Shown here: positions 46,783 to 51,223 of the stretch, in pieces
How positions within the stretch are numbered: the stretch's first letter is position 1
Layout: each line of letters opens with the position of its first letter
Assembly (NCBI GenBank): GCA_030066015.1
Contig: JASJCL010000003.1
Location: 1 to 64,000, forward strand
Direction: 5' to 3'
Source of the DNA: Desulfosarcinaceae bacterium
GTDB taxonomy: Bacteria > Desulfobacterota > Desulfobacteria > Desulfobacterales > Desulfosarcinaceae
DNA length: 64,000 nucleotides
Program-made: the position numbers and the translations under genes
The notes under the pieces: generated by a model
Seen by the model: only the letters and a program-made list of their open reading frames with translations
Told to the model about the DNA's origin: nothing
Databases searched by the model: none

Positions 46783-47436
46783 TCAGGGCAGGACACGACT
46801 TCCCGGATGTTCCCGTTGCCAACGCTCCCACTGGGTATCCTGGGAGGGCAACAGGGGCAGCCGACGTCCGAAGAGCGGTCCCTGAATGGCGGTGAGCCCC
46901 TTGTCATCCGGGTACCAGAGGCTGCCGGTCTCCTGATCCACCAGCACGAAGGTGAAGTCGTAGGTCCAGCCCGAAGGCGCCAGGGTAAGCGGTTGGCCGT
47001 CCAGTTGGCGGCTGTACACGGCCGCCAGATCCACCAACGGTCAGTAGGCGGCTGCGATGGGCGTTTCTCCCAGGTGGGTGTTGGCGATCTCGTGCCGGGT
47101 CAGGCGGCGCACCGAGTAGGCGTGGGCGCTGCCGCTCTCCGCATCCGATATGCCGATGATGCGCGTTTCCTCCGGCAGATCGACGCCATCGGCGGCCAGG
47201 GACCCATCGTCCAAGGGTCGGATGGCGTTGCGCCCGATACCGAACTGGAACCCTTCCGGACGGAATCCGAGGCCAATCGCCTGGGTGATATCCCATCGTT
47301 CGCCTTTTTGGTCGACGATATAGGTTTTGCCGTCCGCCTCACCTACGGCGGCTGCGTGTACAGTCCCGAGCGCAACGAGCAACAAAAAAAGGCTGAGCAG
47401 TATCGATTCACATCGTTGAAGGGTTCGCTTCCCCAT
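46783..47436 (-). CDS. DUF3179 secreted protein, candidate selenoprotein (in-frame UGA at codon 132)
   Basis: ATG 47436 follows GGGAGGTG. Residues 1-29 are a signal peptide ending in VHAA. The frame meets TGA at 47041-47043 and continues unbroken to 46783, giving 217 residues if the TGA is read. The joined protein is a normal DUF3179 domain: HAYSVRRLTRHEIAN, GETPIAAAY-U-PLV, then WTYDFTFVLVDQETGSLWYP, IQGPLFGRRLPLLPSQDTQWERW and HPGSRVL. The UGA sits precisely where the family has the first Cys of Y-C-P-L-C, and coding quality does not drop after it. A SECIS-like hairpin follows. The alternative is a nonsense-mutated pseudogene. Function of DUF3179 is unknown; the position suggests a periplasmic redox or metal site. 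Confidence 0.8.
47006..47027 (-). promoter_or_regulatory. Candidate bacterial SECIS element
   Basis: In the DUF3179 mRNA, UGGCGGC and GCCGCCA form a perfect 7-bp stem with loop CGUGUACA. The hairpin begins 14 bases after the UGA. A G is the second loop base, 22 bases after the UGA. A short GC stem with G among the first two loop bases at 16-37 bases from the UGA is the known bacterial SECIS pattern read by SelB. Confidence 0.72.
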
Positions 47437-47612
47437 AACACACCTCCCTGATTGATCGACGATGTTTGCATTCTTTCCCCTCAGAGGGTAAACACTGCCA
47501 CTTCACCTGTACAGGTCTCGCAGGGATGATCCGGGGAGGGGGGAATTGGCGGGGCGCTGGCCCGCGGATCGCCGATTGGGCACCTTCGCCAGTTAGATTT
47601 GGAGATATTCGA

Positions 47613-48478
47613 ATGCTTGTCAGGGCTGTAAGGACGCTGTCTCCCGATTTCCACCCGACAAGGTGGCCACTCTTGAGACGGGTGTTCTACGCTGTGGTAT
47701 CGCTGCTGCGTCCGGAACGATTGGCGGTGGCCTACGGGCACCAGCTGTTTGTCGAAATAAGAGACAGATCGGCCTTCTCCTACTTCCTTTGGCGCAAGCG
47801 AAGCTACGAACCGGCGCAAAGCGAATTGGTAACGCGACTATTGGCCAAGGGGGACATCGCTGTCGATATCGGTGCAAATGTGGGGTATTTTGCCTGCCTA
47901 GTCGCTCGGCAAGTCGGTGCGGAGGGAAAGGTCTATGCAGTTGAGCCTGAGGCAACGAATTTCAAGTGGCTGCAACACAACTTGTCGATCAACGGAATGC
48001 ACACCGTGAAATGTTTCAGAAACGCCCTCTCCAATTCCATCGGAACTGAAAAATTGTATCTCTCAGCGGATAGTATGGGAGAGCATTCCCCTTTTTTTAA
48101 GGCGTTGGGAAGCGATATCAACAGGTGCCCACCATCACCTTCGACCGGTTTATTCAGTACCAGCTCGGCGGCGGGCAAGACGCCATAAAACTGGTGAAGA
48201 TCGATGTCGAGGGGAATGAATTACAGGTGCTCGAAGGGATGTCCCGTCGCCTGATTGACAACTTGATTGTTGAGTATTCGCCCTATCGAGTGGTGGAAAG
48301 CGGTGGGGATCCCCTCCGCTTTTTTCAGATATTAGATGCGCATTTTGCGAAGATGGCGTTGCTGTCATCCACCCACAGCGCTATTGAATCGGTAGAGGAG
48401 ATCGTCGCCAACATCGACGACCTAATTGGCGACAAGTTCTCCTTTTTTGATCTGCATGTGGTGTTTCCCACCCATTGA
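47613..48478 (+). pseudogene. FkbM-family methyltransferase, frameshifted
   Basis: ATG 47613 has GGAG nine bases upstream. The first frame encodes a SAM-binding half (GDIAVDIGANVGYFACLVARQVG, VYAVEPEATNFKWLQHNL) and stops at 48188. The second frame, shifted by -1, carries the matching second half (VPTITFDRFIQYQL, IKLVKIDVEGNELQVLEGM, LIVEYSPYRVVESGG, to 48478). The join must fall between about 48101 and 48125, because the second frame has a stop at 48098. Either a one-base deletion has broken the gene or it is a sequencing error. FkbM enzymes O-methylate sugars or secondary metabolites. Base composition is visibly less GC-rich than its neighbours. Confidence 0.8.
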
Positions 48479-48633: not shown

Positions 48634-49032
48634 TCATGAATTTCGAAGCCGGCGGTCCCAGTCGAAACTTTTGGCCGTCACCGAATCCTCGAGGCGACGC
48701 AGACGGCGTTCGAGGCGGTCATACCGCTGTTTTAGGCGCTCTGCCGCCCGGCGGGGTGTATGGGCATAGGCGTCGTAAAAGCTGTCTTCTCCTTCGGCGT
48801 CGAAGGGCAGAACGGGTTCGGGCTTGAGGAGCAGGGCGGTGAGCAGATAGGCACCCAAGGTGGGCCAAACACCGCTCACCAGCAGCAGGAAGACGGCGAT
48901 GGCGCGCGTCCAGAAGAGCGAGAGGTCAAAGTGCGTGGCAATTCCCTTGCAGACCCCGAGGATGACGCCGTCACGGGATCGATAGAGTCGTCGCCTGGAT
49001 CTTGCGTGAAGTGGATTGCGGTGATGCTTCAT
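48634..49032 (-). CDS. pspC: Phage shock protein C
   Basis: The 132-residue protein starts MKHHRNPLHARSRRRLYRSRDGVILGVCKGIATHFDLSLFWTRA in PspC style. A membrane helix follows (about 44-70, IAVFLLLVSGVWPTLGAYLLTALLL), and a basic C-terminal coil (AAERLKQRYDRLERRLRRLEDS). With PspB it senses inner-membrane stress and controls PspA. AAGGA precedes the ATG, which overlaps pspB by 4 bases. Confidence 0.92.
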   Translation of the reverse strand: MKHHRNPLHARSRRRLYRSRDGVILGVCKGIATHFDLSLFWTRAIAVFLLLVSGVWPTLGAYLLTALLLKPEPVLPFDAEGEDSFYDAYAHTPRRAAERLKQRYDRLERRLRRLEDSVTAKSFDWDRRLRNS

Positions 49033-49274
49033 GATGACGCGTCCTTCTTTCGGGTGTGGATGAGAATGGTTTCAAGGGCCTCTACGCGTTCCTCCATCCG
49101 TGCCATGCCCTGATAGATCTCTTGCAGCATGCGGGCGTCTGCTGCGGACTGCTCGCGACCCACGCCCCCGCTGCCTTTGATGATGCGGATGGCCAGAAGG
49201 ATGGTGCCGCCGACCACGGCCAGCGCCATGACCACCCCACAGAACACGATTCCCACGATAATCGCCGCCTGCAT
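49029..49274 (-). CDS. pspB: Phage shock protein B
   Basis: The 81-residue protein has one N-terminal membrane helix (IIVGIVFCGVVMALAVVGGTILLAI) and a cytosolic helix with ADARMLQEIYQGMARMEERVEALETIL, the PspB pattern of a leucine-zipper-like tail. It acts with PspC in the membrane-stress sensor. Its ATG directly abuts the pspA stop; the ribosome site GAGGAGCGG lies in the pspA end. Confidence 0.88.
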   Translation of the reverse strand: MQAAIIVGIVFCGVVMALAVVGGTILLAIRIIKGSGGVGREQSAADARMLQEIYQGMARMEERVEALETILIHTRKKDASS

Positions 49275-49952
49275 CTATTTCCGCTCCTCGGTCGGGTCGC
49301 TTTGTTTCGCTTTTAGGGCCCGCAATTCCTCCTCAATGTCCTCGTCCACCATCAGTTTGTCAAGCGCATCTTCGAGGGGGGTGGTGCGCTTGGGATGAAC
49401 CAGATCGGCCTCGGCCTCCATCCGTTCGATGCGATTCTCCAGCTCCTCAAATTTGTGCACCGTTTCGCGGCTTTCGGCGCGCCGGAGCTCGGCCTGGGCC
49501 TGCTTCTTGTGACTGGCGGCGGCATGGCGTTGGGCCAGCAGGCGCTGTTTGTCCCTGGCGCCATTGAGTTTTTCTTCGAGTTGCAGGATCTCTTCGCGAT
49601 ACTGTTCCACGAGGGCTTCATGACCGGCCAACTCCTCCCGACGGGTATCGCCGCTCTGGAGGTAGCGCCTTTTTTCGATAAGCGCTTCCCTTGCCAGATC
49701 CTCGCGCTGTTTGCGCACCGCCAGCGCCGCCTTGGCCTCCCAATCGCGGCACTTCTCGTCCAGCAACTCAATTTCCCGGCGAATCTTGGCCTGCTCGGCC
49801 ATGACACCGGCGCAGGCGGCCTTGAGTTCCACCAGGGTGTCCTCCATTTCGTGGATCATGAGCCGGATCAGTTTATGGGGATCCTCGGCACGGTCCAGCA
49901 TGGCGTTGATATTGGCGCTGATGATGTCTCGGAATCGTGAAAAGATGCCCAT
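49275..49952 (-). CDS. pspA: Phage shock protein A
   Basis: ATG 49952 (MGIFSRFRDIISANINAMLDRAEDPHKLIRLMI) has AAGGAGG upstream; 225 residues. The N-terminus includes the amphipathic membrane-binding helix. The rest is the long PspA/Vipp1 coiled coil (VMAEQAKIRREIELLDEKCRDWEAKA, VEQYREEILQLEEKL). It oligomerises on damaged inner membrane and, when free, inhibits PspF. The sigma-54 promoter at 49996 drives pspABC. Confidence 0.95.
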   Translation of the reverse strand: MGIFSRFRDIISANINAMLDRAEDPHKLIRLMIHEMEDTLVELKAACAGVMAEQAKIRREIELLDEKCRDWEAKAALAVRKQREDLAREALIEKRRYLQSGDTRREELAGHEALVEQYREEILQLEEKLNGARDKQRLLAQRHAAASHKKQAQAELRRAESRETVHKFEELENRIERMEAEADLVHPKRTTPLEDALDKLMVDEDIEEELRALKAKQSDPTEERK

Positions 49953-49995
49953 TTCGGCCTCCTTGGCGTGTGTGTTTGGATTGATCATCCATATT

Positions 49996-50012
49996 CCAAT
50001 CATCGTGCCAAA
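49996..50012 (-). promoter_or_regulatory. Sigma-54 promoter of pspABC
   Basis: On the minus strand TTTGGCACGATGATTGG matches the -24/-12 consensus TGGCAC-N5-TTGC with correct spacing and one mismatch (G for C in the -12 element). The pspA start is 44 bases downstream. Confidence 0.85.
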
Positions 50013-50061
50013 GCAGTATCAATAAAAATTACAAATAGTTGTGCCGATAATTCCGATTTGC

Positions 50062-50111
50062 TTACCATAATTAATGGTAAAAATTAAGAAAGTATGGTAA
50101 AAAAAACCATA
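50062..50111. promoter_or_regulatory. PspF upstream activator dyads
   Basis: TTACCAT-AATTA-ATGGTAA (50062-50080) is a perfect inverted repeat. A second dyad is TATGGT (50093-50098) and ACCATA (50106-50111), separated by A residues. Both lie between pspA and pspF, upstream of the sigma-54 promoter. The second ends two bases before the pspF start, consistent with activator binding sites that also allow pspF autorepression. Confidence 0.75.
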
Positions 50112-50113
50112 AA

Positions 50114-51223
50114 ATGGATAAAATTACTAAAATACCCAGCATCCAGGAGGCCCTCGGTCAATCCGACACCTTTCTTGCCTTCCAGGAGCACCTCTCGCGG
50201 GCGGCGCTGGTGGACCGGCCGGTCCTCATTGTCGGTGAGCGGGGCACCGGTAAAGAGCTGGCCGCCCAGCGGCTGCACTATTTATCCCACCGCTGGCAGT
50301 CTGCGCTGGTGACCCTCAATTGTGCCGTCCTACCCGCCCACCTCATCGAGGCGGAGCTTTTCGGCCATCAGCGCGGCGCATTTACGGGCGCCTCTTCGAC
50401 GCGGATGGGCCGATTCGAGGCGGCCGACGGTGGGACGCTTTTTCTCGATGAGGTGGGCACCTTGCCGCTGCCAGTGCAGGAGAAGCTCCTGCGGGTGGTG
50501 GAGTACGGCAGTTTCGAGCGGGTGGGCAGCAGCCGTTCCATCTCCGTCGATGTGCGCATCGTTGCAGCCACCAACGCCGATCTGCCGGCGCTCTGCCGCA
50601 AGGGCCGCTTCAAACCCGATCTTCTCGATCGGCTCAGTTTCGATGTGCTTCGGCTGCCGCCCCTCAGGTCGCGGGAGGGGGATATCCTGCTGTTGGCGAA
50701 CACTTTCGCCGCCCGCATGGCCCAGGAATTGCGCCGAGACGGTGTTCCCCGCTTCTCGCCCGAAGTGATTCACGAACTGGAGGTCCATACCTGGCCGGGG
50801 AATGTTCGTGAACTGAAGAACGTTGTCGAACGGGCAGTCTATCAGGCCGACGGCGATGCCATCGGTACAATTGAGATCGACCCTTTCGGCACCTGGGAGG
50901 CGCCGCCCACAATTCCGCCGCCAGTCAACCGCGAATCGACCGCAGCAGTTCCCGAAGCAGCAGGGCGCCCTATCGCCGACAGCCCTCCCGCTGCCATCGA
51001 TGCGCTCCTCGATCAAGGGCTGCCCGAAGCGGTTTGGCAGCTGAAGGTAGCCCTCCTAGAAAGGGCCCTGGCGGCAGCTCGCTTTCACCAGCGGGAGGCC
51101 GCCCGACACCTGGGTTTGACCTACCATCAGTTCAGGGGGCTGTACCGCAAGTATCGGGCGTGGCGCGCACGCGGTCAGGCGGGGGCCGACGAAGCCAGTG
51201 GCGACGCCGACAAATCGAGCTGA
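50114..51223 (+). CDS. pspF: Sigma-54-dependent activator PspF
   Basis: The 369-residue protein lacks a receiver domain and begins with the AAA+ core (IPSIQEALGQSDTFLAFQEHLSRAA). It has Walker A VGERGTGKELAA, the sigma-54 contact loop GAFTGA, Walker B GGTLFLDEVGTL, and TWPGNVRELKNVVERAVY. A Pro-rich linker and a Fis-type HTH (HQREAARHLGLTYHQFRGLYRKY) end the protein. It hydrolyses ATP to open the sigma-54 pspA promoter and is held inactive by PspA. No Shine-Dalgarno is visible before the ATG, which is unusual in this window. Confidence 0.93.
   Translation: MDKITKIPSIQEALGQSDTFLAFQEHLSRAALVDRPVLIVGERGTGKELAAQRLHYLSHRWQSALVTLNCAVLPAHLIEAELFGHQRGAFTGASSTRMGRFEAADGGTLFLDEVGTLPLPVQEKLLRVVEYGSFERVGSSRSISVDVRIVAATNADLPALCRKGRFKPDLLDRLSFDVLRLPPLRSREGDILLLANTFAARMAQELRRDGVPRFSPEVIHELEVHTWPGNVRELKNVVERAVYQADGDAIGTIEIDPFGTWEAPPTIPPPVNRESTAAVPEAAGRPIADSPPAAIDALLDQGLPEAVWQLKVALLERALAAARFHQREAARHLGLTYHQFRGLYRKYRAWRARGQAGADEASGDADKSS

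Follow-up and report, generated by a model that had tools for sequence, protein, structure and literature searches.

Comparative evidence for a bacterial SECIS element in a short-form DUF3179 gene of a Desulfosarcinaceae bacterium

A UGA-containing DUF3179 gene and its downstream hairpin

We analysed a 64,000-nucleotide stretch of DNA from a Desulfosarcinaceae bacterium (the window), which carries a DUF3179 gene with an in-frame UGA codon and a hairpin shortly behind it:

46783..47436, minus strand: predicted DUF3179 selenoprotein gene; with the TGA read through it has 217 codons including UGA132, and its stop codon is the UGA at 46785-46783
47041..47043, minus strand: in-frame UGA, predicted to be read as Sec132 (UPLV), at the first Cys position of the DUF3179 CPLC/CPLT motif
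47006..47027, minus strand: candidate bSECIS hairpin with the 7-bp stem UGGCGGC/GCCGCCA and the loop CGUGUACA

Translation through the TGA places U at residue 132 in the sequence AAAYUPLVDLAAVYSR. In a profile search, residues 87-216 match PF11376 (DUF3179) with E=1.4e-27 and 97.4 bits, against a curated cut-off of 27. The match covers just the first half of the profile (positions 22-147 of 292), and the protein belongs to a short form of ~215 amino acids. The hydrophobic N-terminus of the 217-residue protein makes its export likely. A whole-genome search found one DUF3179 gene in the window's genome. NCBIfam holds no model for the short UPLV form, a sequence search of solved structures returned none related to the DUF3179 protein, and an AlphaFold2 model built from four sequences was poor (mean pLDDT 52, pTM 0.37).

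The 36 bases 3' of the UGA (47043-47041) read CCGUUGGUGGAUCUGGCGGCCGUGUACAGCCGCCAA on the minus strand. Here, U14-C20 (UGGCGGC) and G29-A35 (GCCGCCA) form a perfect stem, the hairpin spanning nt 14-35 after the UGA. The 8-nt loop starts with CG, its second base (nt 22) being the G, which is followed by U, and the spacing from UGA to loop is 20 nt. C21 and A28 are opposed and unpaired in this loop, and a G22-C27 pair may enclose a tetraloop, UGUA, as it does in relatives. The hairpin is contained in the minimum free energy structure calculated by RNAfold, and its stem energy is -12.9 kcal/mol. A published bSECIS model specifies a loop of 3-9 nt, a stem of 4-16 bp, a spacing of 16-37 nt, a G in the first two loop positions and an energy of -7.5 kcal/mol or lower (PMC13188914); the window's hairpin lies within every one of these constraints. 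The preliminary description had reported the same stem, 14 bases past the UGA and with G second in an 8-base loop, and had assigned it bacterial SECIS geometry; its account was exact, coordinates (47027..47006) included, and its reading of the geometry agrees with the published constraints. Taken as a single sequence, the hairpin is mildly unusual only, and as such suggestive. About 7.5% of the UGA triplets in the window satisfy the minimal bSECIS model, 1.0% have a hairpin as stable as -12.9 kcal/mol, and 1.9% of synonymous recodings of the hairpin stretch reach equal stability. The 64-nt stretch as a whole is of ordinary stability compared with shuffled sequences (z -1.0). Rfam contains no other RNA family matching at the hairpin stretch.

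The window's genome encodes a tRNA-Sec with a UCA anticodon (73 bits), SelB (363 bits), SelA (608 bits) and SelD (370 bits). The SelD gene itself has an in-frame TGA at the active site (CGUAAKI), the usual Sec site of SelD. Upstream of the DUF3179 gene, an FkbM-type methyltransferase gene (PF05050, 47615-48478, plus strand) is split over two frames (47466-48188, then 48125-48478) and is therefore frameshifted or mis-sequenced. Beyond it lies a phage-shock-like group (48634-51223), comprising PspA (49275-50003, minus strand), small open reading frames at 48634-49274 on the minus strand that by eye resemble PspB and PspC, and a divergent sigma-54 activator resembling PspF (50114-51223, plus strand).

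Conservation of the UGA codon and the hairpin

Orthologues were sought in genomes of the order (291), the class (389) and the phylum (395), these samples overlapping. The short-form orthologues share ~50-60% identity, and each intact copy contains exactly one TGA, at the UGA132 codon. Two further orthologues of ~44% identity (L041 and L042) come from other bacteria, one from KSB1 and one from an unclassified bacterium. In total, TGA occupies the UGA132 codon in 34/34 orthologues from at least two phyla, a count made up of 32 sequences in the analysed set, a copy at a contig edge (L034) and one found later (L127). None of the 34 has Cys at this codon, and in the genomes searched the UPLV subfamily has no close orthologue with Cys. 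The motif is UPLV, or UPLA in a few copies. Reading frame and protein are conserved on both sides of the UGA in all 34, and the end of the gene is the same across orthologues, the stop codon being TAA, TAG or TGA. The flanking open reading frames (~1.5 kb on each side of the orthologues) include no widely shared neighbour, and gene context thus gave no function. Of 30 other genomes with a UPLV gene that were tested, 28 have SelA, in two cases only as a fragment at a contig edge that scores under the family cut-off; the remaining two genomes are 69% and 82% complete. SelA is also present in the genomes of L041 and L042.

In most orthologues codons +6 to +11 read GCG GCU GUG UAC AGC CGC and fold as GCGGCUG-UGUA-CAGCCGC. 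The window's gene has GCG GCC GUG UAC AGC CGC CAA, and its stem is extended outward by the pairs U14-A35 and G15-C34. We scored synonymous choice as codon entropy relative to each gene's own codon usage, for 102 testable columns in 32 orthologues. The five most constrained columns are +9, +8, +10, +7 and +6, which is the position of the hairpin (z -21.5 to -10.5; these values serve as a ranking rather than as probabilities, since codon usage was estimated gene by gene and the orthologues share ancestry). The codons concerned are, in the same order, UAC in 31/32, GUG in 32/32, AGC in 25/31, GCU in 28/32 and GCG in 24/28 sequences. Codon +11 is constrained as well (z -7.4), and no such constraint is seen at the flanking codons +3, +4, +13, +14 and +15. 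Protein conservation cannot account for this pattern, because the test scores the choice among synonymous codons. The preliminary description had held the hairpin to be independent of the protein-family argument. This needs qualification, as conservation of the peptide LAAVYSR by itself already biases the sequence; it is the synonymous-codon test that supplies the independence.

Covariation, which the preliminary description had proposed to look for among Sec-encoding relatives, is found at one pair. Nucleotides 16 and 33 form G-C, A-U (L025) or U-A (L031 and L032, from genomes G147 and G185), a score reached by 6/500 shuffles. In the latter two genes LSAVYSR replaces LAAVYSR, and the stem is kept by a change on both sides (UCG...CGA), the amino acid (Ala to Ser) and the facing wobble base having changed jointly. 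The extent of covariation in the UPLV subfamily is modest because most of the stem is invariant. Under a simple perfect-stem model, 7/32 orthologues (L010, L014, L023, L027, L029, L041 and L042) have stems below threshold. The RNAalifold consensus for the subfamily is weak (-1.9 kcal/mol), since a few genes, the window's among them, lack single pairs; in its place we used pair counts on the named structure and the synonymous test. L127, found after the pattern had been described, has the same UGA and the hairpin expected from that pattern, at -13.6 kcal/mol.

We compared the UPLV genes with canonical UGA-containing DUF3179 genes and with DUF3179 homologues that have Cys at the position aligned with Sec132. 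At a threshold of -7.5 kcal/mol, 25/32 UPLV genes and 21/27 canonical UGA-containing genes have a qualifying hairpin, but 0/16 Cys genes do; 9 of these 16 come from one genus, and they are not 16 independent cases. The DUF3179 proteins of the Cys set are more distantly related to the UPLV subfamily, and their motif differs somewhat. Synonymous recoding gives a median p of 0.013 for the UPLV genes, 0.023 for the canonical UGA-containing genes and 0.70 for the Cys genes. The expectation that the stem should be lost in Cys relatives is thus borne out, and the expectation that UGA-containing relatives should keep it holds for most of them, 7/32 UPLV stems being weaker than the threshold. The canonical UGA-containing genes use another stem, CGGGAGU/ACUCCCG, with the variants CCGGUCA/UGACCGG and CGGGCGU/ACGCCCG; its register is shifted by three relative to UPLV, and its distance from the UGA is equal. 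One pair covaries here (A-U, C-G or U-G), with 0/500 shuffles reaching the score. Codons +9 and +10 are constrained in these genes (z -7.5 and -10.0), whereas the Cys genes have no such constraint there.

Two loci were recorded beside this comparison. L054 (G482:C192:872-1357) is a DUF3179 gene with a TGA in a UPLC motif, more distant than the UPLV form and adjoined by a second DUF3179 match. Its genome, rated 100% complete, has no SelA or tRNA-Sec above the cut-off, and the gene lacks a qualifying SECIS-like hairpin; L054 may be a contaminant or a defective gene, or UGA may be read differently there. L098 (G383:C41) has a tRNA-Sec gene ~1 kb from a UGA-containing DUF3179 gene, and SelA was not found in this assembly, which is 91% complete.

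Interpretation of the hairpin

The analysis directly shows the hairpin, its conservation together with the UGA, the lack of one in the Cys forms compared, the synonymous constraint and the Sec machinery of the genome. Comparative sequence data lift the hairpin far beyond chance, and it is very probably a genuine bacterial SECIS that directs Sec insertion at UGA132 of the DUF3179 gene. The preliminary description had named it as such, and the contrast between UGA and Cys genes, the frozen synonymous sites and the presence of the Sec machinery speak for this identity. With the ribosome at UGA132, SelB-GTP-Sec-tRNA(Sec) would bind the apical loop, whose first positions, 20-22 nt past the UGA, include G-U. 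Delivery of Sec would then yield the 217-residue UPLV protein rather than a truncated product of 131 residues, and Sec132 may have a redox role.

A GC-rich stretch encoding a conserved peptide (LAAVYSR) could be self-complementary by chance, Sec possibly being inserted through another element. The share of window UGA triplets and of synonymous recodings with equal stability, the larger share that fits the minimal model and the unremarkable whole-segment score would all allow this. The most constrained synonymous sites of the gene coincide with the hairpin across 32 orthologues, however, which largely refutes a chance origin; compensatory changes in the stem and the lack of a qualifying hairpin in every Cys homologue weigh against it too, and we regard it as very improbable. 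That the conserved codons serve some other overlapping RNA or DNA function, such as a regulatory hairpin or a binding site, is more improbable still. Synonymous constraint by itself names no function, but the position and geometry of the hairpin fit a bSECIS, the Rfam comparison offers no other candidate, and distant canonical UGA-containing DUF3179 genes maintain, equally far from their UGA, a hairpin of other sequence and register, the Cys forms having none. Equally hard to credit is a UGA that acts as a true stop, in a pseudogene, through a sequencing error or between two separate proteins. UGA does serve as an ordinary stop of this DUF3179 gene and of others, and a TTG codon shortly past UGA132 opens an 84-aa reading frame; but 34 orthologues share a single UGA at one codon and conserve frame and protein to either side of it, which refutes this reading.

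The UPLV form among DUF3179 selenoproteins

As a SECIS, the window's hairpin agrees with the bSECIS consensus model in its position and energy, in loop size and stem length, and in the G-U that opens the loop. We claim no sequence identity to characterised elements; bSECIS elements often share none (PMC13188914). DUF3179 (PF11376) selenoproteins with the motif UxxC/T already appear in published inventories (PMC9312934, PMC13188914), and a plasmid record is already named 'DUF3179 domain-containing (seleno)protein'. The window's protein shares with the listed ones the Pfam domain and a predicted Sec in place of the first Cys of the CPLC/CPLT motif. It differs by UPLV (Val for Cys/Thr), by its length of ~215 aa, by the half-profile match and in that no Cys form was found. 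An in-frame UGA at the conserved Cys in a Sec-decoding genome is present, the listed UxxC/UxxT motif is not, and the two inventories do not list the short UPLV form separately. The UPLV form is a sound example of a known selenoprotein family and forms a subfamily beyond the listed motif, possibly one that is unlisted.

The UPLV motif has no Cys or Thr three residues past Sec, which speaks against a redox pair of the simple UxxC type; Sec132 may instead have other redox or metal-binding roles. We propose tentatively, with slightly less than even confidence, that the short single-domain form is a distinct subfamily in which Sec is obligatory (34 UGA, 0 Cys) and, with no second redox residue (UxxV), performs chemistry for which Cys is no substitute. 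Because standard gene callers break the gene in two or cut it short at the UGA, the protein will probably be overlooked or mis-annotated. The hairpin, together with its frozen codons, offers a clear criterion for calling UGA-containing DUF3179 genes correctly, and a Sec-only subfamily without a resolving Cys would be a tractable target for learning the role of DUF3179 proteins.
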